DNA of 28,692 nt from a virus. Positions within the stretch are counted from its first letter, which is position 1. Every line of letters begins with the position of its first letter. The DNA is taken from IMG/VR virus record IMGVR_UViG_3300023179_000392, positions 1 to 28,692 of that record; one strand, given 5' to 3'. The position numbers were made by a program, and so were the translations under genes. Positions 3,739 to 27,727 of the stretch are shown here, in pieces. The notes beneath the pieces are model-generated. The model did no database searches, had not been told where the DNA came from, and saw only the letters and a list, made by a program, of their open reading frames with translations.

Positions 3739-5121
3739 ATGCCAACTATACCATCATCTCAAGTTTATAATTATTTAATTAGCGGTTCTAGATCTATAAA
3801 TACAGAAATTTCTTCTTTGTCTCCATCAACACAAATTTTTCTTTACGAATTAGATATCTCAGAAATTGCACCAACAACGATAAATTATCCAATAGAAAAT
3901 CAACCAATTAGTAATGGTGTTTTTAGAGTATATAATGATTACAATTTATTTAAAATCTCTACAGATAATAGTCCGCAGAAATATGGCGCAATCAAATGGC
4001 AAAATAATTTCTATTATCCATTTCCAATATCTACAGAAGGATTTGAATATACTTCTGCAGGAGCTTTACCCACACCAAGAATATCAATATCTAATTTAGC
4101 TCCAGATTATTCTGCAAATTCTTTTTATAGATATTTACGTATGCAGATTCAATCTTTAGGAGATATAGTTGGAGCAAAATTTACAAGAATAAAAACATTT
4201 TTAAAATATTTAGATGGATCAAATTTCTCTGGGGATATAAATATATTCAATCCTCAAACTGGATTATATGAAATGGAATTACCTAAGGATATATATTATA
4301 TAGATCGAAAATCTTTAGAAACAAAAGATACAATTCAATATGATTTAGCTTCAATATTAGATTTAGAAAATTTAACACTTCCAGGAAGAACACTTTTATC
4401 TATAAAATGTCCATTTCAATATAGAGGCGAAGGATGTTTATATGAATACGATAGTAGATTGACATCTCTTCATAGTGGTATTTATGCTGGTATTGAAAAT
4501 TCTCCATATCAAATAAGAGGACTACAAACTGCACCACCAGTTGCAACAGAAAACGATCAACTTTTTATAGGTCAAGGAGGAGTATTTGATACTGGAGTAC
4601 ATTTAAATGCACAAAACGCAATATTAAGAATTACTGGCGGAGCTGGAAATCTTGGTTTATGGCAAAATAATTATAATTATATTTCTGGAGATTTTGTATT
4701 TTTATCTACAAAAAATATTAAATTTTATTATGTTTGTACTAATAATCATTTATCTGATTTTTTTAATGCTCCACCAAATAAAAACTATTGGACATCAGAT
4801 AGTTGTTCAAAAAGTATATCAGCCTGTAGATTAAGGTGGTTAAAAAATCCTGCTTTTAGACCTATAATATGGCCAACAAATCGAAATGGAGAAACATATA
4901 CACAAACAAGAAATAGAATGACATGGCTATATACTACTGGAGAAAGGAGTTTATTTATTACTGGAAATAATAATGAATTAATTAATTTCCCAAGAAGACC
5001 TGGGGCAGAAAATCCTTCGTCAGAAATTTCACATGGAATACCTAAAGACGCCAATGGAAATTATTTAAATGGATTTTTACCATTCGGTGGTTTTCCAGGA
5101 ACAAATCAACCTCAAATGTAA
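3739..5121 (+). CDS. L: Minor tail protein L-like (lambda gpL family), iron-sulphur tail-tip protein with inserted domain
   Basis: 460 residues, longer than lambda gpL (about 230). The N-terminal half has the family pattern (QIFLYELDIS, GFEYTSAGALPTPRISISN, GRTLLSIKCPFQYRGEGC). Four cysteines, C224, C233, C356 and C363, have spacings C-x8-C and C-x6-C, as I recall for the lambda gpL cluster ligands, so a 4Fe-4S cluster is expected. About 120 residues separate the pairs, far more than in lambda. Within them residues 308-351 (W308, YISGDFV, YYVC, NNH, APP, W351) resemble a second CBM5/12-type domain. The C-terminal tail after RLRWLKNPAF is Asn- and Pro-rich. The start lies five bases after the M stop. 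Confidence 0.88.
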   Translation: MPTIPSSQVYNYLISGSRSINTEISSLSPSTQIFLYELDISEIAPTTINYPIENQPISNGVFRVYNDYNLFKISTDNSPQKYGAIKWQNNFYYPFPISTEGFEYTSAGALPTPRISISNLAPDYSANSFYRYLRMQIQSLGDIVGAKFTRIKTFLKYLDGSNFSGDINIFNPQTGLYEMELPKDIYYIDRKSLETKDTIQYDLASILDLENLTLPGRTLLSIKCPFQYRGEGCLYEYDSRLTSLHSGIYAGIENSPYQIRGLQTAPPVATENDQLFIGQGGVFDTGVHLNAQNAILRITGGAGNLGLWQNNYNYISGDFVFLSTKNIKFYYVCTNNHLSDFFNAPPNKNYWTSDSCSKSISACRLRWLKNPAFRPIIWPTNRNGETYTQTRNRMTWLYTTGERSLFITGNNNELINFPRRPGAENPSSEISHGIPKDANGNYLNGFLPFGGFPGTNQPQM

Positions 5122-5122
5122 T

Positions 5123-5842
5123 ATGATAGATAAAAAGATAAAAAATTTCATAAAAAAAGAAGCTTTATTAAATAATCCAAATGAATGCTGTGGTTTTATA
5201 ATTCAAGAAGACGAAAAATTTAGATGTATTCCTATCAACAATATATCACAAAATCCAAAAGAAAATTTTGAAATACTAAGTTTAGATTTTTTAAAAGTAA
5301 AACAAAAATATAAAAAAATATATTATATATATCATAGCCATACAAACGAAAATCAAGAAATTACTGAAAAAGATAAAACTTGTTCAGAAAATTTAATGGT
5401 GCCAATTATTATGTATAATATAAATCATGATATTCTAAAAATTTACGAACCAATAAAAATAAAGAATGAATACATTGGAAGATACTATGAACATGGTAGA
5501 TATGACTGCTTTAAACTTATTGAGGATTATTATAGAAATGAATTAAATATTAATTTTAATTATGATCGTACTTTTTATCGTAAATCACTTATAGAAATGG
5601 ATATAAAAAGTGAAATATTTAAATATTTCCAACAGAATAATTTTGAATTAATAAAAGATAATAAATATCATATAAATGATATACTTTTTATGGATTTCTT
5701 TCTTGATAAAAATCCTAAACATTTTGCTTTATATTTAGGTGATGATAAAATTTTACATCAACCCATGAATGGATTTTCTAAAATAGAAAACTATTCGGAC
5801 TTCTATAGAAAAAGATTATATGCATTTTTTAGGAGAAAATAA
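5123..5842 (+). CDS. K: Tail-tip peptidase K-like: JAMM metallopeptidase plus NlpC/P60 domain
   Basis: 239 residues from ATG at 5123, one base after the L stop; an in-frame ATG at 5069 lies inside L and is rejected. The N-terminal JAB/MPN domain shows E21 (NECCGF), H71-S-H73 and T81-x-x-D84, a JAMM motif with Thr instead of the usual Ser. The C-terminal NlpC/P60-type domain shows C129 in YDCFKLIEDYY and H200 in KHFALYLGDD, the expected Cys and His. Lambda gpK has the same two-domain order and is thought to process tip components or cut peptidoglycan. It overlaps I by one base (TAATG), so translation is probably coupled. Confidence 0.92.
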   Translation: MIDKKIKNFIKKEALLNNPNECCGFIIQEDEKFRCIPINNISQNPKENFEILSLDFLKVKQKYKKIYYIYHSHTNENQEITEKDKTCSENLMVPIIMYNINHDILKIYEPIKIKNEYIGRYYEHGRYDCFKLIEDYYRNELNINFNYDRTFYRKSLIEMDIKSEIFKYFQQNNFELIKDNKYHINDILFMDFFLDKNPKHFALYLGDDKILHQPMNGFSKIENYSDFYRKRLYAFFRRK

Positions 5843-11283: not shown

Positions 11284-14200
11284 TTAACGTTTACTATAAT
11301 AGGTACTACTTAAAATGCCGCCAGGTCTTTGCTCGCTAACAAGTGTTCTAATAACCTGATCTTTTATTTGTGAACTCAACAATTTTAATTTTTGATTTTG
11401 TTCTTCGTTACTAGTGCCACCTGTTTCAGAAGTAGATGTATTTTGATTATTTGACATATTGACTGTAATGTTTACATTGTTTACAGAATTGTAATTATTA
11501 TCTGATATAATACCTTCGGTTCTTTCATTTGAAGTAGGTCCACCATTCGCGAATTTCTTGACTCTTCCAGTATTTAAATCATCAAAGAATTTTTTGCCAT
11601 ATAAATTTACAGCTTCTTTACGCATAACAAACTCTCCATCCATTAAGAGTGCTGGAATATTATCTTGATTTGATCCTCCTTTTGCAAATTTCTTAACTTG
11701 TCCACCAGAAGCTAGAAAGGTTGATCCTGCAGCACCAGCTCCTAGAAGAAATGAAAGCCATGCTCCTTTCTCGGCTTGGCTTTTTTGTTTGTTATATTGA
11801 TCTCTAATTTCTTGATTTATTCTTTGATTTTCTGCATAAGCCTCTTCATTAGACCTTCGAACGCCTTCAACATATTCTAAATAAGCATCAATTTGATTAA
11901 TTCTATCAATATAATAATCTTCGGCCCTTTTTCTTGCTTCATTTTGAGGGTTAGAAGAATCTAAAATCGCCCTAATATTTAAACCTTCTGTAATAGGCTG
12001 GCCTTCTTTGGGTCGGTATAAAGTTTGGCCAGTCTCTGGAATAGTAATTGCATCAAAATTTGAAGTAAAATAATTATCTTTTATAAATGAAGCTTCACCG
12101 CCTCTTGCAAATTTTTTTACTCTTCCGCCATATTTGAAAAATTCTTCTTCATCGGGTCTTGAAATAGAACGGGCCATTGAGGATGTTGAGGATGTTGAGG
12201 ATACGCTTCTAGCAGCCGCGAGTTGAGCCGCAGTTTGATCATAAAAACTAGAGAATACTGGTAAGAAAGTTGAATTAAATGTTTTTTGTTGAATTGAACT
12301 AGCAGGTTGTCCATTGTATGTTGCAGATAATCCTAAACCTGAATATTTAGCTAGAGCAACATCTTTTGGAGTCCCAGCTCTTGCCTCGCTCATTCCTAAC
12401 ATTGAACCCGTCAATGCTCCAAAGGCTTGTCCACTTAACATTTCCTTAATTAAAGTACCAGAAAATTTTTTCTGTACTTTTCCTTCATTCAACATTTGTA
12501 AATATTCTGAACCATATTTTTTAACCGCGCTTTTCCTTATCACATATTCTCCTTGACTTAGCATGGCGGGAACATCATCTTTTGTCCCAGATCCACCAGT
12601 TACATTCCCACCAGAAGAATATCCCTTAATAATACCACCTTTTTTAAATCCAAAAAGGCTACCAAATCCGCCCCCTCCACTACCTCCGCCCAAACCAAAT
12701 ATATTACTTGTACTACCAAAAAGCTTACCAAATAAAAGATTTGTACTAAATTCAAGCGCCAACTGTTGTATTTTATTAGATATATTTAATGCAAATTTTT
12801 CAAAAGCTTGACCAGCTGTAGCTGTACCCTGTGCAAAATCAAAGAAAGCATTATTAAATTCGCTTTTAATTGTTCTCGCAGTTTCTTTTGCGCCTAACTG
12901 AGCGTCTCTAAATGCATCTTCTGTTCTATAATCAAATTCATCAAAGAAAGCATCAGAAAAATCTGTTAATTTTGTTTGATTTGATAAAATATTTTTTTCT
13001 CTTGTTGATTGCCTTGATGTTCTAAAATCTTCTGCAAATAATAATCCTCTTTGTCTTTTATTAAGAGTTATCGAACTTTCTTGAAGAGCTTGTAATGCTA
13101 GAATATATTGATCTTCAGTTATAATTCTTTTATCAACTTGTTCTTTTAATTTTTTCTCTCCAATAATTAATTGATCGGATAAAATTGCTCTATCAGCCTG
13201 ATTGATTACTTCTGTTCTTATACCTTGGAATAATTTACCATATTCTCTTCCCATCATTCGTTCTGGCGCAAACTCTTTACTTTTATCTAATCTTAGACCA
13301 AAGTCTCGGATTAGAGATTCTGTTATTATATCTTGTGCATAGTAATTTTCAAAATCTTCAAGATTTCTAATAATAAGCTCTTGTTTTTTATTAATTTGTT
13401 TACTAAGGCCAAGTCTTTTTTGTAAATCAGTTCTTATTTCTTTTATAATTGCATTTTCTTGATCTAAAGTTAAACTTTGATCTTTTATTTTAAACGTAAT
13501 TCCATCAAAATATTTTTTACCTTCTTCAGTTGCGTAATATATGCCCTTAACTTGATTTAGAACATCATCAAGAGTATTATTTGTTTCAATATAAGTTTTT
13601 GCTGCATTTTCTGGACTTAATCCTCTATTAAGTAAGAAATTCACTCCTCCAGATTTTAATCCACCTGTAAAATCTTTCGTCATTAATCCTATATCTCTTT
13701 CAAGATCTGCCCAAGTTGGTTCAGCTTCACTAAGAGTTTTGAGGCCAGCTGGTTTTTGTGATAAAGGTAGATTCTCTCTTATCGCAAGTACGGCTTCTTG
13801 TAGAACCGCATCTCTATTTTTTGCTATATTATCTAAATTATTTATAATATTTTGAGTACGCTCTCTCCCTCCTTCTGCTTCTATAAAACTAGAAACAAAA
13901 CCTCTGCCTGTAGTTGGACTTTGTCCACGTAATAAACCTTTTGCAATAGCAGGTTCATCTCCTGATTTTATTCCTCTTTGATATAATGTATCAAAATATA
14001 ACTTTGTTTCTCTTTCTATAAGTTCTGCAGATTTTTTAAACAATGATTCATTTAATAATATAGGTATTTTATCAAGTTCACCGCTTTCAAATGCTTGTAA
14101 TATTTTTGCGGTAGATTCTTCTGGAATTTTTTGTAGAGTATTTAAAATATTTTCTTTTAACTGCTCTAATGCTTGAGTTTTTGATATCTCATCTAAATCA

Positions 14201-17200
14201 GAGAATTGAATTTTTCTATATTCTTCTAATTGAGGAAGTAATTGTTGAAGTCCATTTCCTGTATCAGAAATTTCTTGTCTTAAATTTTCAAATTCTCTAA
14301 GTTGTGTTTTTAAATCTTCATTTCCTAAATCTTTTATAATTTGATATATACTAAGAACCGTACCAATTCCCAATCCGATCTTTCCTCCTTTTGCTCCACC
14401 TAATGCTTGACCAGCAAAACCAAAACTAGTAAGATTATTTAAAAGAGTAGTTGCACCTCTTAATTGAGGAGAGTCTTGTACAAATTGAGAAATAGTATTA
14501 ATTAATATTGGAAGACCTATAGATAATGTTAAAAATTTATTATTTAAACCTTCTAAATTTTTCCCTAATTTATCGGTTGTTGTTTCAATGAGTTTGACAT
14601 TTTTACTTGTTTGAGCTACAGCTCTAGATAAAGCCATTTCATCTTTTATCATGCCCAAACCTCCAACAGGTTGAACAGTTGGAATATTAGCAAAACTTGG
14701 TATAAATCCACTTGCTGCGCCAGCATTCTTAGCTCTTGAACCATATCTTGAAACTCCTTGGCCTAAACCAAGTGGTTCATCTTGAGTGTTATATACTCCT
14801 AATCCTAAAGGATTATATGCAGAAGTTAATCTTTTATCTCTACCTATTCTGATTCTAGATGGTGATACTCCTGCGGATAATTCTCTATCAATAGATTCAC
14901 TTAAAGCTGTGAAATTAGGTATAAAACCTTGCGAAGCTAATTTTTTAGTTATTGGTCTTGGTAAACCTGGAAGTCCAGCATTATAAGCTTTTGATATTAT
15001 TTCTCTAGCTGAATCTGAACTTACAATTCTTTTTGCATCTGCTTTAATTACAAATGGATCAAATGCAAAACCAGTATTAAATTGTTGAGATGGAGCGGAA
15101 GCTTCTTCAAAATCAAATGGTTTTTGAGCTGTATCTTGATTGAAAGCTTGCTCTAATGCACCTGTTCCTTTTTTTACTCCTAAATTTACAGCAGCTTCAA
15201 ATATAGAACCTTCAGTTCCTTTTGGAAATAAATTTATATTTTTTCTAGTAGAATTTTGCAACAAATTAAGAAATTTTGGATCTGGATTAACTTTTCCAAA
15301 TATTTCACTCGCTAAATTATAAAGAGGATTAGCAAATAAAGCGTTTATTCTCGTTGAAAATTGTTGTTCATTTCTTATTGAAGAACTAGCTAGATCATCT
15401 AAAGTTCTACCTTGTATACCAGCAAATGTTACTGACCTTGGATCATTTGGATATCCTAATTTTCTAAATTCTGTACTAACTGTAAATGGCCCACGGCTTC
15501 CAGCTACTCCAACAACACCAAGAGAACTTGCATTATATATGGCTTCAGGTAGTTTTTCTACCATCTTTGCATTTTTAACTCCCTGTAAATATTTAGCTTT
15601 ATCTTGTTCAGTTTTTAGTTGAGTTAAGGCTTTTTGTTGACTAATATTTCCTTTTATAGTTTGACTAATTAATGAAGTTACAGAAAAATTAGGTATAAAT
15701 CCTTCTGCTGCATATGGATTAAATCCATAAATTGAACCAAATGCATCTTTATAATTTTTACCAGCAGAGCTTTGACTAGGGGGCATAATTGCAGGTTGAG
15801 ATAGTCCTGGAAATCTTTTTACTTTTTCTGCGCTATTATAAGTTATAGGTCCTTCTCCAGGGATATTCATTCTTCTTATGTTTCCTGGACTATATCCTCC
15901 AGCTAATGCTCCAAAAATTTCACTCATTGCAAAATTAGGTATAAATCCACCACTTTTTGCTTTTAATGTCCCTCCTTTAGTAGTAACTCCTTTTCCTAAT
16001 AAACCACCCGCGATTGTTGTTGAAAGTGCCGCAGCTCTTTCTCTTTCTAATGTTTGTTGACGAATTATATTTAATATTTTATTTTCAACATCTAATACGC
16101 TAATTTGTTTATTATAAACAGCTTGAACTAAAGCTGGCTCTTGAGATAAAACCTGATTAATTCTTGCTTGTATTTGTGCGCGCTGTTCTGCTTGAGTATT
16201 TACATTTAATAATGTTTTTAAAGATTCGCTACTAAATTTAGCTAAATTTAATAATAATTTTCCAAAGACGGCAGTTATAAGTATAACTCCTGGTCCGCTA
16301 ATGAATGCTCCAAGCCCTTGAAAAATTCCTTTTCCTATTTTACCTCCAATTCCTTCACTATCAGTAGATAATGATTCTAGCCCCTTATTAAATAGATTTA
16401 ATGCACTTTCAAAAGTTGGTTGAAAAGATATTTTTCCTACATCTGAACCTAACTTTGTTAAATTAACAAAAGTTTTATTGATTAGTGCTGAAAGAGTTTG
16501 ATTTAATGCTTCATTTCTTGTAATTGCTTCATCTGTAGCATTTCCAGCTGTTTCTAAAGCTCTTGAATATACAGAGTATTGTTTACCCAAATCACCTAAA
16601 GCAGCTTTTAAAATATTTATTTGAAATACGCCGCCGACAGTTTCAGCTAATTGCGCTCTCTGAGCATCAGAAAGTTTATCAAATGTTGTTGATAAATTAT
16701 TTAATATTTGTATAGCTGGTAATGTTCCACCTTCCAAGTCTCGTACTTGAATACCTAATTCCTGCAATTGATCTAAAGTATCTGTTCTTTGTATTCTGGT
16801 AAAAATTGTTTTTAAAGAGTTACCTATAACAGCTCCACCTCTTGCTGTAGTTTGTTGAACACTTGTAACAATCGCAAGAAGTTCATCAAATCCAACTCCA
16901 GCATCTTGAGCAGAACTTCCAACTCGTTTAATAGCTTCCGCTAAGTCAGCTGAACTAACAGCAAATGCTGCGTCAACATTTGCTAATTTATTAATAATCG
17001 TAGTAGAATCTAGAGCTGCGTCGCTAAAACTATTAATTGTTGCTGTTAAGGCTTCTACGGCGCTAACTGTATCTAAACCACTAAGACGAGTTAAAATAAG
17101 CGCATCTCTTGTTCTCTTTAGAGTTTCTTCTAAACCTAAACCTTGACGTGAAAACTCTGTTGCAGCTTGAGCTACTGTATCAAATGATTGAGCTGTATTT

Positions 17201-17562
17201 TTTGCTATAGAAAATAATTGACCACCAAAATTTTCTAAAGTTTTATTACTAACATTTAAAATAACATTAATATCTGTTAATGATTTTTGGACATCTATTG
17301 TGCTTTTTACTAATGCCGAAAATGCTCTCTCTACTGTATAGATTAAACCTGCACTCGCGCCGAATGCAATAACACGAGCATTAGAAGCGTCTAATGATTT
17401 TTGAAATTCATTGGCTGCACCAGTAATTCTACCTAATGGCTGAGTAAAGGCTTTTTCATTTAATCCTTTAAATTTAAAATCGCGCCCTAAAGCCCTTTGA
17501 ATATCTCTTTCAAGTTGCCTTGTATCTGCACCTACTGAAATTGTAGCCGAGGTCCTTGCCAT
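11284..17562 (-). CDS. Tape measure protein with embedded modules, including a PD-(D/E)XK-like segment
   Basis: 2092 residues. The N-terminal 350 residues are a tape-measure core of the TIGR01760 type (ATEFSRQGLGLEETLKRTRDAL, AAFAVSSADLAEAIKRVGSSA, TARGGAVIGNSLKTIFTRI). Residues about 535-960 carry four GFIPNF/GFIPSF motifs at 539, 621, 879 and 952 that divide the middle into modules. Between the second and third lie E789 (GSIFEAA), D817 (PFDFEE) and D842-A-K844 (KADAKR), a PD-(D/E)XK-like arrangement. Residues 1000-1550 are helical. Near 1660 and 1966 a tape-measure C-terminal repeat occurs twice (DVPAMLSQGEYVIRK; NIPALLMDGEFVMRK), each flanked by Gly-rich KKF segments. At about 1.5 angstrom per residue it implies a tail near 300 nm. 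AAAGGAATAAGG precedes the ATG. Confidence 0.95.
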   Translation of the reverse strand: MARTSATISVGADTRQLERDIQRALGRDFKFKGLNEKAFTQPLGRITGAANEFQKSLDASNARVIAFGASAGLIYTVERAFSALVKSTIDVQKSLTDINVILNVSNKTLENFGGQLFSIAKNTAQSFDTVAQAATEFSRQGLGLEETLKRTRDALILTRLSGLDTVSAVEALTATINSFSDAALDSTTIINKLANVDAAFAVSSADLAEAIKRVGSSAQDAGVGFDELLAIVTSVQQTTARGGAVIGNSLKTIFTRIQRTDTLDQLQELGIQVRDLEGGTLPAIQILNNLSTTFDKLSDAQRAQLAETVGGVFQINILKAALGDLGKQYSVYSRALETAGNATDEAITRNEALNQTLSALINKTFVNLTKLGSDVGKISFQPTFESALNLFNKGLESLSTDSEGIGGKIGKGIFQGLGAFISGPGVILITAVFGKLLLNLAKFSSESLKTLLNVNTQAEQRAQIQARINQVLSQEPALVQAVYNKQISVLDVENKILNIIRQQTLERERAAALSTTIAGGLLGKGVTTKGGTLKAKSGGFIPNFAMSEIFGALAGGYSPGNIRRMNIPGEGPITYNSAEKVKRFPGLSQPAIMPPSQSSAGKNYKDAFGSIYGFNPYAAEGFIPNFSVTSLISQTIKGNISQQKALTQLKTEQDKAKYLQGVKNAKMVEKLPEAIYNASSLGVVGVAGSRGPFTVSTEFRKLGYPNDPRSVTFAGIQGRTLDDLASSSIRNEQQFSTRINALFANPLYNLASEIFGKVNPDPKFLNLLQNSTRKNINLFPKGTEGSIFEAAVNLGVKKGTGALEQAFNQDTAQKPFDFEEASAPSQQFNTGFAFDPFVIKADAKRIVSSDSAREIISKAYNAGLPGLPRPITKKLASQGFIPNFTALSESIDRELSAGVSPSRIRIGRDKRLTSAYNPLGLGVYNTQDEPLGLGQGVSRYGSRAKNAGAASGFIPSFANIPTVQPVGGLGMIKDEMALSRAVAQTSKNVKLIETTTDKLGKNLEGLNNKFLTLSIGLPILINTISQFVQDSPQLRGATTLLNNLTSFGFAGQALGGAKGGKIGLGIGTVLSIYQIIKDLGNEDLKTQLREFENLRQEISDTGNGLQQLLPQLEEYRKIQFSDLDEISKTQALEQLKENILNTLQKIPEESTAKILQAFESGELDKIPILLNESLFKKSAELIERETKLYFDTLYQRGIKSGDEPAIAKGLLRGQSPTTGRGFVSSFIEAEGGRERTQNIINNLDNIAKNRDAVLQEAVLAIRENLPLSQKPAGLKTLSEAEPTWADLERDIGLMTKDFTGGLKSGGVNFLLNRGLSPENAAKTYIETNNTLDDVLNQVKGIYYATEEGKKYFDGITFKIKDQSLTLDQENAIIKEIRTDLQKRLGLSKQINKKQELIIRNLEDFENYYAQDIITESLIRDFGLRLDKSKEFAPERMMGREYGKLFQGIRTEVINQADRAILSDQLIIGEKKLKEQVDKRIITEDQYILALQALQESSITLNKRQRGLLFAEDFRTSRQSTREKNILSNQTKLTDFSDAFFDEFDYRTEDAFRDAQLGAKETARTIKSEFNNAFFDFAQGTATAGQAFEKFALNISNKIQQLALEFSTNLLFGKLFGSTSNIFGLGGGSGGGGFGSLFGFKKGGIIKGYSSGGNVTGGSGTKDDVPAMLSQGEYVIRKSAVKKYGSEYLQMLNEGKVQKKFSGTLIKEMLSGQAFGALTGSMLGMSEARAGTPKDVALAKYSGLGLSATYNGQPASSIQQKTFNSTFLPVFSSFYDQTAAQLAAARSVSSTSSTSSMARSISRPDEEEFFKYGGRVKKFARGGEASFIKDNYFTSNFDAITIPETGQTLYRPKEGQPITEGLNIRAILDSSNPQNEARKRAEDYYIDRINQIDAYLEYVEGVRRSNEEAYAENQRINQEIRDQYNKQKSQAEKGAWLSFLLGAGAAGSTFLASGGQVKKFAKGGSNQDNIPALLMDGEFVMRKEAVNLYGKKFFDDLNTGRVKKFANGGPTSNERTEGIISDNNYNSVNNVNITVNMSNNQNTSTSETGGTSNEEQNQKLKLLSSQIKDQVIRTLVSEQRPGGILSSTYYSKR

Positions 17563-17620: not shown

Positions 17621-18637
17621 TTATTTAATACCATGTAGTTTCATTAAATCTTGCATACTTAAAGTGCCACCTTTTTTCAACGCTTCTCCATGTAAACTTA
17701 CCCCATTTTCATCTGCACCAATTTTAGCAAGATCTTCTTTTTTAGCGCCTATTATAGATGTTCCAACTGCACCCTCACTTTTTTTATTTTCTTTTATATT
17801 ATTTTTATTAAGTACTTCCTCAGCATTTTTACTACTTTCAAGCCAATCAATAAGCTTTTCTGGGTCTTCGTATAGTTCATCTGCCGGTTTGTGTTTAGCT
17901 TCAGATAGAGCGTTTCTAAAATACCTTGAATAACTAAATACTTCAATTTGATAAAAAGTGAGATGTATTATTGGTTTTCCATATAAATAATATGGATTAT
18001 CTTCGCACATATTATAAAGGCTAAGATAAAAAGATGATAAAGCTATTTTTTTTAAATTTTTTTCAGAAAAATTACTATTTATAATATTGTATATTTCTAT
18101 TATTTCAGATATATCTTTATTCTCTAATTCATCAAATTCATTTTCAGAAAAATACCTTTCCCTTAAAGACGAATCTTTAAATAAAGAATTAAACATATAA
18201 TATTCATTAATTTTTTTATTAGCATAATCTTCAACTGTAAATCCTAGCAAGGTCTTTCTTTCACTTGTCAATTCTACTAATTTTAATGTTTCTTCATTGA
18301 TATGCTGATTAATTGAATTTATCTCTTCATTTCTAAATAGTTTTGATTTCGTTGTCTTAAGATTAGAAATATAAGATTTTATCTTTTTTATTTCTTCATT
18401 TTTTTCTTTTGACCAAAATTTTTCTGTTATTAAATATTTTTCTTTTTCTTCTTCTGTTGGTAATCCGTTACTTTTAGCTTTTCTTATAAAATCTTGTCTT
18501 TTTGAATCTATATCTCCAGAGTCAAAACTGGTATTATGCTTGAAATAAATTTTGTTATTTTTATAATATGCTTCTGTATACCCTTTGAGTATATCAACAA
18601 ATAATAACCTTATTTTATTTTTGTCTATATTTTCCAA
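17621..18637 (-). CDS. Protein in tail-assembly-chaperone slot (338 aa)
   Basis: 338 residues, mostly charged and helical (EEKEKYLITEKFWSKEKNEEIKK, with likely coiled coil at 80-130), a more compact hydrophobic part around 190-240 (LSSFYLSLYNMCEDNPYYLYG) and a flexible Lys/Gly-rich tail ending MQDLMKLHGIK. I do not recognise the family. Lying directly before the tape measure gene, it occupies the position of the long tail chaperone (lambda gpGT). The start is a TTG at 18637 with GGAG nine bases before it; no suitable ATG lies nearby in frame. It is in the same frame as the upstream gene, separated only by tandem TAA and TGA stops, and no classical slippery heptamer was found. Confidence 0.65.
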   Translation of the reverse strand: MENIDKNKIRLLFVDILKGYTEAYYKNNKIYFKHNTSFDSGDIDSKRQDFIRKAKSNGLPTEEEKEKYLITEKFWSKEKNEEIKKIKSYISNLKTTKSKLFRNEEINSINQHINEETLKLVELTSERKTLLGFTVEDYANKKINEYYMFNSLFKDSSLRERYFSENEFDELENKDISEIIEIYNIINSNFSEKNLKKIALSSFYLSLYNMCEDNPYYLYGKPIIHLTFYQIEVFSYSRYFRNALSEAKHKPADELYEDPEKLIDWLESSKNAEEVLNKNNIKENKKSEGAVGTSIIGAKKEDLAKIGADENGVSLHGEALKKGGTLSMQDLMKLHGIK

Positions 18638-18640
18638 TCA

Positions 18641-19402
18641 TTATTTCTCCGCTTTTTTCACATCTTTATTTATTGCGTCAAGAAGTTTAGAAAATTCCTC
18701 TTGAGTTGCAGCTCTGCCGATATACCAGAAACTTATTAGATATAATAATTTTTGAAGAGCAATTTTTTCTAAGCCTAATTCTGATTCTTCAATTTCATCA
18801 TATCTCTTAAGTTTATCTTCATAAGTTCCTTCGCCAAAAAGTTCTTTTAACTTCTTATCCTCTCCTTCGATGAGACTTAATTGAAGAACCCACCACATGA
18901 TTGTTTTATTTCTTGCTCTATTTTCTGCGGTTTGTTCAAAAAGATTAGCTTGAGCCATCTCATATTTTTGTATCATTTCTCTTGTTTCTGTCATTTTTTC
19001 AATAATTTTAGCAAGTTCACTTTTTTCTTCTTCTGTTCTTAATGATTCTTGTTTCAAAGATAATTTTTGAAAATCAACTTGTAAATTTAAGAAATTATTA
19101 TAAAGATCATTATATTCCTTTTGTTCTTCTTCGCTTAAAACTCCTCCATCATTATTAAATCTTTTAGCTAATAAGGCGCGAGTCAATAACCCAGCTTTAA
19201 TACCTTCTGATAATCTTACGCCATAAAAAAGTTCAGCTTCATCAAAAAGACTACGAGTTGGTTTCTTAATAGCTAGTTTAACTGGAACTGTAGTCTTGAC
19301 TTTAGAAGTTACTTTAACTTCTTCACCTTTTTCGTTGGTAGAAACTTCAACTTTTTCTACTTCTTTTTCATGATAAATATCAAATTCAAACATTGTTTTC
19401 AT
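18641..19402 (-). CDS. Putative tail assembly chaperone (253 aa)
   Basis: 253 residues. The N-terminal 50 residues are strand-like and acidic (FDIYHEKEVEKVEVS) and lead into VKLAIKKPTRSLFDEAELFYGVRLSEG and LLTRALLAKRF at about 45-83. A long helical region follows (about 85-165), then NKTIMWWVLQLSLI and a final helical part containing LLYLISFWYIGRAATQEEF. The position between tail tube and tape measure genes, together with the length and helical character, fits the first tail chaperone (gpG-like). It is ATGA-coupled to the 91-residue gene upstream. The function is inferred from position; I cannot name the family. Confidence 0.65.
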   Translation of the reverse strand: MKTMFEFDIYHEKEVEKVEVSTNEKGEEVKVTSKVKTTVPVKLAIKKPTRSLFDEAELFYGVRLSEGIKAGLLTRALLAKRFNNDGGVLSEEEQKEYNDLYNNFLNLQVDFQKLSLKQESLRTEEEKSELAKIIEKMTETREMIQKYEMAQANLFEQTAENRARNKTIMWWVLQLSLIEGEDKKLKELFGEGTYEDKLKRYDEIEESELGLEKIALQKLLYLISFWYIGRAATQEEFSKLLDAINKDVKKAEK

Positions 19403-19674
19403 ATTTTTTCTCCATTATTTTCTATTATCTCATTGAGATATTTTTTAATTTTTCCATAGTAAACTACGCCGCCTATTGTTTTTATAAATAGGTGTTTTTT
19501 AGTTTCATCCCAATTTTTATAATTTTTAATAAAATTAGGATTTTTAAGAATAGTTAGGCTAGGTTTTAGAATGCCGAAGTTATCTTTTAAACTTTTCTGT
19601 ATACTCTGCACGGATAGATTACCCTCTATTATTTGATCTATGCTAAAACTATAATTTAATTTCTTGCTTCTCAT
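19399..19674 (-). CDS. Small hypothetical protein in chaperone slot (91 aa)
   Basis: 91 residues, basic, with no membrane segment. An N-terminal part (FSIDQIIEGNLSVQSIQKSLKDNFG) looks helical, a middle part is Asn/Lys-rich, and FIKTIGGVVYYGKIKKYLNEII closes the protein. Its start overlaps the stop of the 74-residue gene and its own stop overlaps the start of the 253-residue gene, both as ATGA junctions, so the three are translationally coupled. I do not recognise it. A role in tail assembly is inferred only from this tight coupling. Confidence 0.6.
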   Translation of the reverse strand: MRSKKLNYSFSIDQIIEGNLSVQSIQKSLKDNFGILKPSLTILKNPNFIKNYKNWDETKKHLFIKTIGGVVYYGKIKKYLNEIIENNGEKI

Positions 19675-19895
19675 TTTATTGATATATTTAATTTACTAAA
19701 ACTTTCTTCTATCTCTCTTATAGCGTCATTTGCGTTATCGAGTATTCTTTTACGTATTTTTTGATAAGTTTCATCATTTATATTATAACCAGAATCATTT
19801 AAATCTTCAAGAATAAAAAAGAAATTTTTATATATATTTGTAATTTTCCTCTTTATCTGAAAAAGAGTAATATCTTTGATAGGATCATTTTCCAT
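19671..19895 (-). CDS. Small hypothetical helical protein (74 aa)
   Basis: 74 residues, predicted nearly all helical: KDITLFQIKRKITNIYKNFFFILEDLNDSG, then NDETYQKIRKRILDNANDAIREIEESF. No known domain. First gene after the terminator and GTGTAAT motif that follow the tail tube gene; AAAGG sites lie before its ATG. Its stop is TGA inside an ATGA overlap with the next gene. It probably assists tail assembly like its neighbours, but nothing in the sequence proves it. Confidence 0.55.
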   Translation of the reverse strand: MENDPIKDITLFQIKRKITNIYKNFFFILEDLNDSGYNINDETYQKIRKRILDNANDAIREIEESFSKLNISIK

Positions 19896-19934
19896 AATCT
19901 TTTACCTTTATTTTAACCTTTGACCTTACAATAC

Positions 19935-19943
19935 ATTACACCA
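19935..19943 (-). promoter_or_regulatory. GTGTAAT motif upstream of the chaperone-slot unit
   Basis: Minus-strand TGGTGTAAT immediately downstream of the hairpin terminator and about 40 bases before the ATG at 19895. It is followed by GTATTG, resembling the TTATTG after the tape measure copy. Terminator then motif then gene is the clearest example that this element marks a transcription start. Confidence 0.6.
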
Positions 19944-19944
19944 A

Positions 19945-19978
19945 AAAATAACCCCCGCAGTGACGCGAGGGTTATTTT
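19945..19978 (-). terminator. Strong hairpin terminator after the tail tube gene
   Basis: The arms AAAATAACCC and GGGTTATTTT pair over ten bases; one mismatch and three more G-C pairs extend the stem, closed by a six-base loop. The stem ends in A/T runs on both sides, so it could work in either direction. It lies 21 bases past the stop of the major tail tube gene. It is by far the most GC-rich hairpin in the window and would isolate the highly expressed tube gene from the chaperone-slot genes. Confidence 0.85.
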
Positions 19979-19998
19979 ATAATTTATTTAATTATTTA

Positions 19999-21174
19999 TT
20001 AGAATTGACCGTTAATAAATAATCCGTTATTGGTATCTTGTGGACCACCAACTTGAGTACTAAATGTCAAGGTTACTGTCTTATTAGCACCAATATCAGA
20101 ACTAAATTCTTGACTATCTAATTTGGCCCCTTTTAAAATATAATTAGCCATAATTAGATTAGAATCAGTTGGACTTTTAATAGTTATTTCTGGATTATAA
20201 GTTTGCCCATCATTTGCAACAATATTCGCTAGATTACCAGTAATCATATCTGTTACTTGAGCATCTACGCTTAATGTTACAGCTAATGGGAAATCAATTT
20301 CTTTTGCGAAAGCAAATCTGTTACCGAGTTTTTCGATTGGTGTACGAGCAAGATCAAAACTTAAAGTGTAGCTTTGAACATTAGCTTGAGTAGCATCTGC
20401 TCCTCCTGCGGATGTATTACTTAAAGTTAAAGTAATATCTCCTGGACGAAGGGCGCTAATTGCGTTACCGCTACCAATACCAACATTTTGTATCGTTGCG
20501 GGAATTTGATAGTAAACTCCTGTAGTACCATCAGCAGATACTGGTAATCCATTTACTGGGTTCACAGCGGGGATTAAATTACCACTTAATCCTTGCTGGA
20601 AATTCATATTAGTTCCTTCTACGTTAATAGTTGTAGTTGGGAAATTACCAACAGATCCTTCGTGTGAAAAAGATGTAATATATCCGTTACCAATGCCTAT
20701 TATTCCATTTGTACCAGTAGCTCCAGCGTATCCAACAGCATCATTACCTTCTGCAACAGTACGAATAAAATAATTTCTTTCATCACCTACTTTATTCAAA
20801 AATCCAGATATAGCAGATACTGTTGAATCTGTATTTCCAGAAACTATGGTAAATCCAAGAATATTCTCATTAGCTAAATTACCATTAATATAACTAAAAT
20901 CTAAAGATACTGTTGGTTGAGTCAAGATAACTCGATCAATAGCTGCTAGCTGACCAAATTGATTTACATCTGTACGCTCTACATTAAAACTATAATTTGC
21001 GGTTTGTATTCTTTGTAATTGTTTAACTAAATTACCGCTAATCCACGCCCATCCGCCTGCATCTTCTTGTCTATTAGTTTTTACTCCTGCAGCGTTAACG
21101 AAATGAAACCCTGTTGCTGGAGCAGGTCCAACGTAAAGAGCTTCTGATTGATAAATTATTCTATTTCTTGGCAT
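19999..21174 (-). CDS. Major tail tube protein
   Basis: 391 residues, beta-rich, Gly/Asn/Thr-rich, with no cysteine and no membrane segment. The N-terminus (RIIYQSEALYVGPAPATGFHF, then LVKQLQRIQTANYSFNVERTDVNQFG at about 49-74) and VSLDFSYINGN at about 89-99 fit tail tube proteins of long-tailed phages. The C-terminal third repeats the theme (YTLSFDLARTPIEKLGNRFAFAKEIDFPLAVTLSVDA), so the protein may hold two tube domains, or a tube domain plus an added domain. The position after the neck genes and before chaperone-slot and tape measure genes supports this strongly. It has its own GTGTAAT motif, a CGGAG ribosome site and a strong terminator, as expected for an abundant structural protein. Confidence 0.82.
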   Translation of the reverse strand: MPRNRIIYQSEALYVGPAPATGFHFVNAAGVKTNRQEDAGGWAWISGNLVKQLQRIQTANYSFNVERTDVNQFGQLAAIDRVILTQPTVSLDFSYINGNLANENILGFTIVSGNTDSTVSAISGFLNKVGDERNYFIRTVAEGNDAVGYAGATGTNGIIGIGNGYITSFSHEGSVGNFPTTTINVEGTNMNFQQGLSGNLIPAVNPVNGLPVSADGTTGVYYQIPATIQNVGIGSGNAISALRPGDITLTLSNTSAGGADATQANVQSYTLSFDLARTPIEKLGNRFAFAKEIDFPLAVTLSVDAQVTDMITGNLANIVANDGQTYNPEITIKSPTDSNLIMANYILKGAKLDSQEFSSDIGANKTVTLTFSTQVGGPQDTNNGLFINGQF

Positions 21175-21198
21175 ATTATTGTTTCTCCGTTTATTGTT

Positions 21199-21207
21199 AT
21201 TACACCT
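21199..21207 (-). promoter_or_regulatory. GTGTAAT motif upstream of the major tail tube gene
   Basis: Minus-strand AGGTGTAAT in the 57-base gap before the ATG at 21174, followed by AACAATAAACGGAGAAAC, which contains the ribosome site. A transcript starting just past the motif would have a short leader with a good Shine-Dalgarno sequence. Confidence 0.55.
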
Positions 21208-21231
21208 TATTTTTTATATTTTTACCTTTTT

Positions 21232-22095
21232 TTATTGATGTGGTTGACGATTTTGCGCTAACTCAAAGTCAATAAATGCTGTAAAAAGGTTAGGGTTTAA
21301 TTTATTATAGCTATTACTAAGCCTACTATCAGTTTTTGATACGCTAACATCATTAATATATAAATATTGATAATCAGGCTGTTTATTGGCTGTTAGTTCT
21401 TGATAATTGAAACAATGCCCAGTACAGCTCCCTAACATATTAAATGGCATCTCATTATCGTATATTAATGGTATAAATTGCCTAGCAGTATCTCTAAATA
21501 TGCTAGTAACGGCATCCAACTTAAATATATTATCAGCTAATACTATAGCTCTTACATTAATATAGGTTGTATCCATTCCACCAAAAGCAAAAGGCTCATT
21601 TGAACCACCTTGATATTTTAGATATATCACAGGATACGTTTCTGCATTTGAAGCTAAACCAGTAGGATTCTGATAAGTCTGAGGCTTTAATTGAAATTGA
21701 GTTTCAAATAGAAGATCTTCTTCTGTTTCACTAGTTAAATATATATTAAAATCTTTAACTGCATAATTACCACTTATTGAACTTGGCGCACCAACTATAG
21801 GTTGACTAAAATATAATTGACCTTGAGTAGCATTAATTCCACTTAAATAATTTTGTCCAACTTGTGTAAATACTCCATTTATATATACTCCGCTGATGAT
21901 ATTAGCATTTGTTATAGATTCATCAATAACCATTTGTTTAAATGGCGCACCATATGTATAATATCCATAATATCTGGTATCTATAGGCCAAAAGTTACTA
22001 GAATGATTTGTAAAAGCTTCACCTTTTGATAATAATTTATTATCAAACCAAAATAACATGCTTGTCATAGCGATATTATTAAATTGAGCTTTCAT
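21232..22095 (-). CDS. Neck / tail-terminator-position protein
   Basis: 287 residues, mixed alpha/beta, aromatic-rich, with no membrane segment. Visible features: LFWFDNKLLSKGEAF near 14-28, YINGVFTQVGQNYLSGINATQGQLYF at about 70-95, and VIYLKYQGGSNEPFAFGGMDTTYINVRAIVLADN around 154-188. The last part holds CTGHC at about 224-228. Order in the unit (adaptor, stopper, completion, this gene, tail tube) puts it where tail terminator proteins are encoded, but it is about twice their usual length, so an enlarged terminator or another neck-ring protein is possible. Its ATG directly follows the stop of the 193-residue gene. Confidence 0.55.
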   Translation of the reverse strand: MKAQFNNIAMTSMLFWFDNKLLSKGEAFTNHSSNFWPIDTRYYGYYTYGAPFKQMVIDESITNANIISGVYINGVFTQVGQNYLSGINATQGQLYFSQPIVGAPSSISGNYAVKDFNIYLTSETEEDLLFETQFQLKPQTYQNPTGLASNAETYPVIYLKYQGGSNEPFAFGGMDTTYINVRAIVLADNIFKLDAVTSIFRDTARQFIPLIYDNEMPFNMLGSCTGHCFNYQELTANKQPDYQYLYINDVSVSKTDSRLSNSYNKLNPNLFTAFIDFELAQNRQPHQ

Positions 22096-22677
22096 TTATT
22101 TAAAACCTTCTATAAAATTTTTATATAAAACACTAAAGTATTTTGTTGGTTTATAGGATAGTCTTCTAATTTTATTTTTACTTTGAATAGCTTTGCCAGA
22201 ACGACTTGTAGGAAATAATAAGCCGTAAAGATAATTACTAAATCCAGATATGCCTTTTTCTATTCCTTTTAACCAACTATTTCCACCTTCAAATGGCATA
22301 GGAGTATAAGGTTTAAGTTCTTCTAAAGACGGAGTATAAACTTGAAAGCTAAATACTTCTCCTTTAGATTTAATTGGTTGTATTCTTGTATTTTGTTCTA
22401 TAATCTCTATGAGATCTTCTACGGGTTTATCTCCCGCGTCAAATCCAATAAAACTATAAAGATTTCCTTCTCCGTTTAATGTATTAGATATATTTGCCGC
22501 TTCTGGTCCATCAGCTAATTCTTGAGAGACTGGATGTTCTAAGATTTTAGAGATATATTCTTTTTTATTATTCTCAAGAATTTTATCAGCAATTATTTTG
22601 GCTTCTTTTTCCAAAGCTTTAAATTGAGCAGAAGCAATTTCATTTTTCAATATAGACTTATTAATTTTTGAAGCCAT
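22096..22677 (-). CDS. Putative tail completion / neck protein (HK97 gp10-position)
   Basis: 193 residues. The N-terminal 45 residues are helical and basic (LEKEAKIIADKILENNKKEYISKILEH). A Gly/Ser region follows with LYSFIGFDAGDKPVEDLIEIIEQN at about 73-96, then FEGGNSWLKGIEKGISGFSNYLYGLLF at about 129-155, SRSGKAIQSKNKIR, and a basic C-terminus. This pattern and its place between stopper and terminator positions fit a tail-completion protein. The start overlaps the stop of the 145-residue gene (TAATG), so translation is coupled. The family assignment is inferred from order and length. Confidence 0.6.
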   Translation of the reverse strand: MASKINKSILKNEIASAQFKALEKEAKIIADKILENNKKEYISKILEHPVSQELADGPEAANISNTLNGEGNLYSFIGFDAGDKPVEDLIEIIEQNTRIQPIKSKGEVFSFQVYTPSLEELKPYTPMPFEGGNSWLKGIEKGISGFSNYLYGLLFPTSRSGKAIQSKNKIRRLSYKPTKYFSVLYKNFIEGFK

Positions 22678-23686: not shown

Positions 23687-25672
23687 TTAATATTCTAAAC
23701 AAACTGCTGGAGATCTTACAGATCTATTCCATAATCCTGTGCCAATTATAGACTTTAAATCTGATCCACTTTCATAGATAAGAAAATCAGAAATCGCAGG
23801 ACTACCTCCATCTAAGAAAGTTGTCATTCCCGTGGCTAATCCAAAATAACTTAAAAAACCATTTGTATTTACTGTTCTAAATGTAATAGGAGTTAATGTT
23901 CCAGTATTACAAGATGCGAAGATATAAGATCCTTTAGGCAAAGTAATATTAGTATTTAAACGTTCAATTCTAGGAACATTACTATTTAAAACATTTATTG
24001 TTCCTGAATAACCTAATTTCGCTCCTTCAAATCCCGCGCCTGAATAAATACCAATCTTAATAGATGTATCAGAACCAGCAGAAACACTCTCTATACAGAT
24101 TTTTGGATTTATGGCATCTTTTTTTAATATAAATGGATAATAATTAATATGACCAGAAGGCGGAGCAGCGGTTCCAAAAGTTACAGTTGAATCTGATACA
24201 TATCTTCTAACATTTAATGATGCAGGATAATTTTCCGCTAAATTTGGAGTAAATACACCACTACTGTAAATATTATTGACATATATATTTCCACTAATAT
24301 TTTGATTTCCAGTATTATAAATTAAATTATTTGCATATAAATTATCTGCATACAAATCTCCATTAATAAATTCTGGAGATCTAGATACATAAATTCCAGA
24401 AGGATCATTGTATACTGTTCCTACTAAATATTTTGCGTCAGCACTTAAAAATAATGAAGTCCAATTTTTTACTGAGCTTTTTTCTACCCAGTCGGATCCA
24501 TAATTTGTTGATATATATATTTTCCCATTATATGCACAGACACCCATAATCGAACCATCATCACTCATACCTCCTATGCCATCTATGGCTATACCAGTTG
24601 GACCAACTCCAGTGTTCCATGTTTCTCCATAGTCATTTGAAATAAAAATACTTTTTTTATCTGGATCTGATGGAACCCATTGAGTACATAAAACTTGAAC
24701 TCTGCCTAAATTAGATATTGATGCTGCCATATATCTTTGGTTAGATACTGACATAGGTAAATATTTTTCTATCCAAGTATTTCCATAATCATTTGAAGTA
24801 TAAAAATATCCAGTATTTGGTGGGAAAGCATAAGAAACGGCTAATTGATATCGTCCATCTCCATTCATAGCACAACTTTTAAAAAGTAAACTTTCTCTAT
24901 TTATTTTTCCTGGAATTTGAAGTGAACCTTGGGCTTCCCAAACTTCACCATAATTATTTGAAGTATATAGTCCAAACTCTGGTTGAGTTTCTGCATCGAT
25001 TCTATCATAATAAACAACCGCAGTTTGATATCTGCCATTCGCACTCATTGCGACAGATGAAAATCTACTGTATCCATCGATAGGATTTAAAATTTTTTCC
25101 GTATTCCAGCTAATTCCATAATCTTTTGAAAGATATATATTTCCAGAAAAAACAACTGCAGTTTGATATTTACCATCAGCACTACTTGCAATACCAAACC
25201 AATTCTTTGCTCCTATATTTTTGTTAATATTCCAAGTTTTTCCATAATTATTAGAATTAAAAATATTTCCTGTCGTCTCCCCAAAAACATTTCCAGCTAT
25301 AACACTTAAATATTTTCCATCTGAACTACCTGCTACTTGTTTAAATAAAGGATTAATTGGATTTAATAAATTAGATTGATTAAATTTTTCTCCAATTCTA
25401 TATGGAACAACATCTTTAGGTCCTTCTAGAATATTTATTTTTCCAACAAAATATCCTGCATCATAATTACCAGAATAATTTATACCTGTTAAATATCCAC
25501 TTGGTTCACTGGTATAATTACTTAATATATTATTCGCGTATAGTTCATCAAAAATACCTGTAGAATTACAATTTAAACTTAAATTATTTAAATAAACTGC
25601 TGATTTATTCTCGACAATGCTAAAATCTTGATATACAGATGATGTTTTTTTATTATATATAGTGTGTTTCAT
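23687..25672 (-). CDS. Tail-fibre protein with Asp-box beta-propeller
   Basis: 661 residues. After an N-terminal part with fibre-like repeats (about 25-80) come six Asp-box-type motifs: SNNYGKTW, SKDYGISW, SNNYGEVW, SNDYGNTW, SNDYGETW and STNYGSDW, each with an upstream SADGKY-like turn. They build a six- or seven-bladed propeller of the sialidase/sortilin kind at about residues 110-430. A short fibre repeat (DLYADNLYANNLIYNTGNQNISGN) follows, then a beta-rich C-terminal domain (about 475-661) that may be a separate binding head. No sialidase catalytic Arg triad or Tyr-Glu pair was identified, so a binding role is more likely than catalysis. Last gene of the fibre unit. Confidence 0.75.
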   Translation of the reverse strand: MKHTIYNKKTSSVYQDFSIVENKSAVYLNNLSLNCNSTGIFDELYANNILSNYTSEPSGYLTGINYSGNYDAGYFVGKINILEGPKDVVPYRIGEKFNQSNLLNPINPLFKQVAGSSDGKYLSVIAGNVFGETTGNIFNSNNYGKTWNINKNIGAKNWFGIASSADGKYQTAVVFSGNIYLSKDYGISWNTEKILNPIDGYSRFSSVAMSANGRYQTAVVYYDRIDAETQPEFGLYTSNNYGEVWEAQGSLQIPGKINRESLLFKSCAMNGDGRYQLAVSYAFPPNTGYFYTSNDYGNTWIEKYLPMSVSNQRYMAASISNLGRVQVLCTQWVPSDPDKKSIFISNDYGETWNTGVGPTGIAIDGIGGMSDDGSIMGVCAYNGKIYISTNYGSDWVEKSSVKNWTSLFLSADAKYLVGTVYNDPSGIYVSRSPEFINGDLYADNLYANNLIYNTGNQNISGNIYVNNIYSSGVFTPNLAENYPASLNVRRYVSDSTVTFGTAAPPSGHINYYPFILKKDAINPKICIESVSAGSDTSIKIGIYSGAGFEGAKLGYSGTINVLNSNVPRIERLNTNITLPKGSYIFASCNTGTLTPITFRTVNTNGFLSYFGLATGMTTFLDGGSPAISDFLIYESGSDLKSIIGTGLWNRSVRSPAVCLEY

Positions 25673-26776: not shown

Positions 26777-27727
26777 TTAACTAACTCCTATATCCGCACT
26801 AAGCGTTATCCAACCTGTATAACCTATATTATTTACACCCAAGAGTTGCAAGCTTTCGTTCTTGTAAAGGCTAATATTAAAGAATCCATCTATAGTTCTT
26901 TGACCAGATCCTGTTATTAATAATATTCCAGAATTAAGATTTTTAACATAATAATTTATCCCAGAAATTATTCCACTAGGTAAAGTACCTATTACATTAT
27001 TTGAACTATTAACAATATTTATGTAAGTATTACCAAAAATAAAATTAGAACTAATATAATTATAAGAAGATAATTTACTATTTGTTATTTGAATAGCATC
27101 AAAAAAACCTGTATTAGTAAAAGTTTTATTACCAGATACTACTTGATTACCAGTAACGTAAACCACTTGATTGGATAAGGCGTATGGCATTAAATTAACT
27201 CCAGTTAATACTCGATTACCAGAAATATACATTGTTCCACCCGAGATATTAACATTTCCATCTATTAAATTTATATTTGTCCCAGAAAAATTAAATTCAC
27301 TAATATTACTTAAATCTAGATAATTAAATATGCCTGTTCCTTGAATTTCAAGATTATTAATAAAAGTTTTATTCCCAGAAATTATTTGGTTTCCAGTAGT
27401 ATAAACTACTTGACTAGATAAAGCGTATGAAGATAAATTTACTCCTGTAATTATAGGATTTCCAGAAATATAAATATTTCCGCCAGAAACATAAACATTA
27501 CTATCAACTAAATCTATATTTATACCAGAAAATTCAAATTCATTAATATTATTTAAGTCTACAGCGTTAAAAATACCAGTTCCAGAAATTTGAATATTAT
27601 TTAAAAAAGTTTTATTTCCAAATATAATTTGATCGCCAGTGTTATATACTAAATTAGGAGCAGTTACTTCTTGAGAAAAAATCCCACTTTTACCTATTAA
27701 AGTTTTAGCCTTAAATATATTTGCCAT
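26777..27727 (-). CDS. Tail-fibre protein with three ~80-residue repeats
   Basis: 316 residues. An 80-residue unit occurs almost three times, each beginning with a segment like QVVYTTGNQIISGNKTF (first at about residue 25, then about 105 and 185) and continuing with GTGIFN, SGTNINLIDGNV, ISGGTMYISGN and ITGVNL. The third copy is truncated after NKTFTNTGFF. The C-terminal domain (about 215-316: NVIGTLPSGIISGINYYVKNL, LLGVNNIGYTGWITL) is a compact beta structure common at fibre ends. The repeats suggest a trimeric shaft. An AAGGAT ribosome site supports the ATG at 27727. First gene of the three-gene fibre unit. Confidence 0.75.
   Translation of the reverse strand: MANIFKAKTLIGKSGIFSQEVTAPNLVYNTGDQIIFGNKTFLNNIQISGTGIFNAVDLNNINEFEFSGINIDLVDSNVYVSGGNIYISGNPIITGVNLSSYALSSQVVYTTGNQIISGNKTFINNLEIQGTGIFNYLDLSNISEFNFSGTNINLIDGNVNISGGTMYISGNRVLTGVNLMPYALSNQVVYVTGNQVVSGNKTFTNTGFFDAIQITNSKLSSYNYISSNFIFGNTYINIVNSSNNVIGTLPSGIISGINYYVKNLNSGILLITGSGQRTIDGFFNISLYKNESLQLLGVNNIGYTGWITLSADIGVS
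27080..27660. repeat. ~240-bp tandem repeats in fibre coding sequence
   Basis: Sequences near 27117, 27358 and 27598 (AAAGTTTTATT cores) recur about every 240 bases and encode the three 80-residue fibre units. Divergence is clear at the DNA level, so these are older than the 54-base repeats. Confidence 0.65.

Follow-up and report, generated by a model that had tools for sequence, protein, structure and literature searches.

Exchangeable domains bounded by GFIPNF motifs, including a predicted nuclease-like module, in the tape measure proteins of uncultured phages

Tape measure protein gene, its surroundings and its motifs

The window, a stretch of 28,692 nucleotides (IMG/VR virus record IMGVR_UViG_3300023179_000392), contains a minus-strand ORF of 2092 aa at positions 11284..17562, which was assigned as a tape measure protein (TMP) gene on the basis of a PhageMin_Tail match (E 9.3e-29) and of matches to many PHROG tail length tape measure families (best 4.9e-52). 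The conserved N-terminal domain (Pfam PF10145, PhageMin_Tail) covers residues 120-311 (16630..17205, minus strand), and the ORF is sited among tail genes, with PF05939, PF05100 and GpJ-like matches elsewhere in the window. A tail-tip protein encoded on the plus strand at 5069-5842 carries JAB and NlpC/P60 domains, which we take to be the usual lambda gpK-like pair. Five minus-strand ORFs of 193-391 aa at 17621-22677 had no Pfam or PHROG match, so part of the phage structural gene set is very divergent. A BNR/sortilin-like beta-propeller protein (23687-25672) and a protein with BppL_N-type segments (26777-27727), both on the minus strand, are likely receptor-binding or baseplate parts. In the C-terminal part of the TMP (residues ~1700-2040), two copies of a repeat, GGxxxx..D[DN][VI]PA[LM]L..GE[FY]V[MI]RK.AV..YG..[FY]...LN.G, were recognised by eye and are possibly a second bead type.

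The original prediction had divided this protein at four copies of a short motif, and all four were located at the residues it gave. The motif reads GFIPNF at residues 539-544 (motif 1, 15931..15948), 621-626 (motif 2, 15685..15702) and 879-884 (motif 3, 14911..14928), and GFIPSF at residues 952-957 (motif 4, 14692..14709), whose fifth residue is N in relatives; all copies are encoded on the minus strand, as are the segments between them. Motifs 2 and 3 form the left and right boundaries of a slot: DNA identity between relatives falls at the former and returns at the latter. The two short segments beside the slot are here termed beads. Bead segment 1 (residues 545-620, 15703..15930) has the form YNSAEKVKRFPG...QPAIMPP...GFNPYA, with YNSAEKVKRFPG beginning at residue 575, belongs to an 82-member cluster and is 62-96% identical between relatives and the window. 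Bead segment 2 (residues 885-951, 14710..14910) has the form NPLGLGVYNTQDEP..., with NPLGLGVYNTQDEP beginning at residue 917, belongs to a 114-member cluster and is 58-89% identical. An enzymatic role had been suggested for the segments that follow motifs 1 and 3, but these YNSAEKV.../...VYNTxDEP sequences proved to be small conserved beads and not obvious enzymes.

Across 784 distinct contexts the motif consensus was [AK][AS]xG[FY][IV]PN[FY]A. GFIPNF occurred 618 times in the fetched ORFs against a mean of 0.15 for other permutations of its letters, a contrast that is inflated because the loci were partly collected by the motif itself. DNA encoding GFIPNFA was found in 120 stretches in the viral contig scan, 99 of them within ORFs in which the motif occurs two or more times. 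A TMP-wide search, which was not directed by the motif, recovered 27 relatives, and in 24 of the 26 that reach the region the motif is present three or more times with an unchanged layout; those with fewer were partial matches or matches to the C-terminal part only. The N-terminal domain of the window's TMP was detected by HMM in three scans in 267 of 322 ORFs with at least two motifs (ORF counts may repeat contigs, segment counts refer to distinct sequences, and neither is corrected for relatedness), and PhageMin_Tail was found in all three multi-motif ORFs checked by Pfam. In 54 of the remaining 55, the first motif comes within the opening 450 aa of the ORF, so that the N-terminus is probably off the stretch. 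The proposed motif-delimited modules are strongly supported by these 322 ORFs, a wider set than the original prediction had before it, and by module swaps at the motifs, and the motif is, on the same strong support, a boundary marker of cassettes in a large TMP group of uncultured phages.

Codon identity between motif copies was 0.69 against 0.60 expected, and with only this slight excess the motif looks to be kept mainly as protein. One explanation for such conservation is processing: GFIPNF would be a putative protease site, the TMP would be cut at each copy, and the modules would travel as free effectors. It would account for the finding that a single nine-residue consensus marks each module boundary and is conserved on its two sides in the 784 contexts, and proteolysis of multidomain virion effectors has been proposed for polyvalent proteins (PMC5512222). 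After such cuts, however, the tail-length region would no longer be attached to the N-terminal domain, and a linker or cassette joint predicts the same pattern and fits it equally well; processing is considered unlikely, although it is compatible with an effector array and does not exclude one.

Exchange of modules at the slot

The slot (residues 627-878, 14929..15684, minus strand) is occupied in the window by a hypervariable nuclease-like module, whose subtypes share 15-29% identity, and which was characterised by a 177-member HMM family and by AlphaFold2 modelling. Exchange at this position was examined in three pairs of relatives that are mostly collinear outside the slot. Between L009 and L010, TMP identity is 97% outside the slot (TMP residues 1-957) and 17% within it, with nucleotide similarity of 89% upstream and 80% downstream; the blastn blocks break off at 9883, close to the end of motif 2 at 9878, and restart at 10608, the start of motif 3. 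In L014 and L021, similarity restarts exactly at motif 3, having been lost approximately 25 bp ahead of the motif 2 end; in L007 and L011 it reaches precisely to the motif 2 end and restarts approximately 10 bp before motif 3. Domains are thus swapped at a fixed boundary within a constant carrier, as is characteristic of polymorphic systems. No co-varying neighbour gene stood out in the three swapped pairs within the sequence compared, and an adjacent cognate immunity gene is therefore not indicated there.

The toxin of MuF polymorphic systems forms the C-terminus of a head protein. The MuF toxins of temperate phages (PMC5576092) resemble the present case in that a virion protein bears exchangeable toxin domains; in the window's TMP, by contrast, the cargo lies inside the protein, and the swapped pairs showed no neighbour gene that varies with it.

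Replacement of whole cassettes, precisely at a conserved site, would also be expected of a selfish element, that is, an in-frame homing-type nuclease spreading between TMP genes through the conserved motif codons, and interruption of TMP genes by homing endonuclease genes is common (PMC10448857). Nevertheless, the module runs without a break within the ORF, occurs in 122 of the 133 complete cassette regions and is swapped for other alleles and not absent; the same boundaries are common to unrelated domains, and the usual intein junction residues were absent at the module ends by eye. A selfish cassette is consequently regarded as very improbable.

Residue pattern and modelled fold of the slot module

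Slot family members were gathered by iterative HMM, which yielded 177 distinct modules. The residues on which a nuclease had been proposed, E789 within GSIFEAA, D817 within PFDFEE, and D842 and K844 within KADAKR, were all found as described, and a check for their loss in relatives found them retained across the 177 members. E789 of GxxFE (15196..15198) is E in 172 and D in 5; D817 (15112..15114) is D in 176; D842 of [DE]xK (15037..15039) is D in 123 and E in 54; K844 of the same element (15031..15033) is K in all 177; and K858, which lies in the helix that follows the [DE]xK strand (14989..14991), is K in 159 and Q in 18 (all minus strand). Columns with more than 75% agreement and few gaps were G785, F788, E789, D817, F832 (81%), K844 and K858. 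A loose regular expression of the residue pattern fitted 169 of the 177 modules, where shuffling gave an expectation of 5.75. Because the HMM in part recruits its members by these very columns, 177 of 177 overstates independence; the direct alignment of 22 sequences, in which subtypes share 15-29% identity with the window module and the same residues are prominent, is the cleaner evidence.

The K or Q at position 858 recalls the RecB-type Q of the PD-(D/E)XK family. Read from sequence, the arrangement E...D...[D/E]xK...[K/Q] is the active-site pattern of PD-(D/E)XK nucleases, and the module shares with those of the RecB/Cas4/lambda exonuclease type E, D, [D/E]xK, K/Q in the next helix, and a G four residues before E; unlike them, it gave no sequence, profile or fold match, and its D817 lies in a loop of the model.

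Two AlphaFold2 runs agreed, and the deeper one (85 sequences) reached pLDDT 90.3 and pTM 0.81. In the model, E789 lies in helix 781-796, D842-x-K844 in strand 840-847, which is preceded by a three-strand meander, K858 in the next helix and D817 in a loop. The helix, strand, strand order that had been predicted for these residues is accordingly followed by E789 and D842-x-K844 but not by D817. In PD-(D/E)XK nucleases, whose core is alpha-beta-beta-beta-alpha-beta, D and (D/E)xK occupy adjacent strands. Foldseek comparison of both models with the PDB and of the first model with BFVD gave nothing significant, VIA gave a best Z of 4.4 on a 46-residue helical stretch and no structural match, and phmmer and hmmsearch of the slot module against the PDB gave no meaningful match. 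Pfam, NCBIfam and PADLOC provided no credible family for any of 85 slot-family members. Alignment with hhalign to PDDEXK_1, lambda exo and GIY-YIG was not significant, and this comparison has no power because the positive control, lambda exo against PDDEXK_1, failed too. As no solved or viral structure resembled the model and D817 is in a loop, a PD-(D/E)XK fold was not confirmed by modelling. Of the nuclease originally predicted, then, the residues stand (E789, D817, D842 as D or E, and K844 kept in 172, 176, 177 and 177 of 177), whereas the fold, which these structural and profile searches did not support, stays a candidate; as judged from the residue pattern, the slot module is probably a Mg2+-dependent nuclease-like domain.

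Inter-motif cargo, membrane-like segments and proposed delivery

The 592 distinct inter-motif segments comprised 177 nuclease-like modules and 148 others of at least 100 aa. Among the 133 complete cassette regions, the TMPs carry up to six cargo domains each, and 43 regions hold other modules in addition to the nuclease-like one. Pfam searches of 75 representative segments matched SNase (2e-9), a cytidyltransferase-associated region (3e-8), GNAT (2e-5), an HSP90-like ATPase (4e-5) and ParB_N (6e-3); matches to other domains were mostly weak, and for GNAT, the ATPase and ParB they lay close to or under the curated cut-offs. By eye, some segments were also read as kinase-, ART- or HAD-like, but neither Pfam nor, for three of them, PDB searches bore this out.

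TMPs are known for modular repeats, and the inter-motif segments could be folded tape-measure spacers that have no enzymatic role and vary by ordinary phage mosaicism, their conserved acids and lysines stabilising a small fold or binding a tail component. The conservation of beads 1 and 2, which have no enzyme match, and the failure of every library searched (Pfam, NCBIfam, PADLOC) to name the slot family are consistent with such structural beads. Against them, the columns conserved at 15-29% identity are mainly E, D, [DE]xK and K/Q and not core hydrophobics, and recognisable enzyme domains occupy sister slots; a purely structural role is thus considered unlikely.

Hydropathy identified transmembrane-like segments on both sides of the cassette region, at residues 420-438 upstream (16249..16305) and 1010-1028 downstream (14479..14535), both on the minus strand. 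In 124 distinct long TMPs, at least one hydrophobic segment was present before the first motif in 121 and after the last motif in 92, and none lay between motifs in 120. A loop held between two membrane segments would be well placed for the exposure of cargo. Domain content, hypervariability and position between the two membrane-like segments together suggest, at the level of sequence, that the cargo is delivered to the host, and a polymorphic, virion-delivered effector array with a nuclease-like core module is the explanation that we favour, with moderate confidence.

Under the effector-array model, this TMP group would carry an exchangeable domain array in the stretch between the two membrane-like segments, with a GFIPNF-type motif bounding each domain and serving as the joint for cassette exchange; the window slot (residues 627-878) would hold the commonest cassette, the hypervariable and probably Mg2+-dependent nuclease-like domain. 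The TMP would be packed in the tail and on injection would pass into the cell envelope along with the DNA, where its two hydrophobic segments would enter the inner membrane and the intervening loop would position the cargo within reach of nucleic acid. The putative target would be nucleic acid in the cell, for example the DNA or RNA of the host or some competing element, and slot hypervariability could reflect an arms race over the target or an inhibitor. The more specific proposal, an undescribed effector-delivery system in which GFIPNF joints link one to six cargo domains in a membrane-flanked loop around a near-universal core weapon, a nuclease of new fold, is advanced only tentatively.

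The closest precedent, as far as it is set out in the part of the source available (PMC10770324), is gp96 of Thermus phage P23-45, a TMP fused to the virion RNA polymerase. Both proteins combine an enzyme, a putative one in the window, with the membrane or membrane-like segments of a TMP, and the P23-45 enzyme is proposed to be active during DNA entry; gp96 differs in having a single fixed N-terminal polymerase, and that part of the source describes no motif-delimited exchangeable slot. Polyvalent proteins (Iyer et al. 2017, PMC5512222) likewise contain many enzymatic domains (GNAT, ADP-ribosyltransferase, nucleases) and are predicted to be co-injected with DNA, and multiple domains, which define them, are present in the cassette TMPs (133 complete regions). 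They differ in that TMPs go unmentioned in the paper, whereas here the backbone is a TMP and one nuclease-like family is near-universal. A literature search with the motif strings found no relevant paper. No credible match to the cassette region of the window or of three diverse relatives was found in 50,697 phage records, and none of the cultured phages tested carries these cassettes; a tblastn match in MT836110 (E 0.4) fell in tryptophan synthase and was attributed to chance.

Two relatives sit in Flavobacteriales or Flavobacteriaceae MAGs, which is a weak host hint. L108 (contig NZWA01000041.1), a close TMP relative within a Flavobacteriales MAG, could point to a host or be a phage contig that was binned there. 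Among 395 sampled genomes of the class of this MAG, the region was found in that MAG only, and the hosts therefore stay uncertain.

The occurrence of different enzymes between the same markers in related uncultured phages suggests swappable weapons or tools that are brought into bacteria with the DNA. Proteins injected with phage DNA are largely unknown because such cargo is hard to recognise, and a short boundary motif makes it searchable. The 148 non-nuclease segments can be taken directly as candidates for domains with a role in counter-defence or takeover. The hypervariable nuclease-like modules would constitute an enzyme family that is new and subject to strong diversifying pressure, and the cassette boundary points to a natural chassis with which proteins might be delivered into bacteria.

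Unrelated extra modules of 155 and 121 aa were observed beside the nuclease-like module in L099:1-13779 (TMP residues 628-782) and in L106/L107, respectively, and since each brings its own motif, arrays grow by one motif-bounded unit. The TMPs of L132, L147, L138, L172 and L156 have four to eight inter-motif segments, which include an HSP90-like ATPase (L147:5327-7036), a ParB-like domain (L138:1213-1524) and GNAT, all by weak Pfam matches, and these proteins offer rich material for effector discovery.
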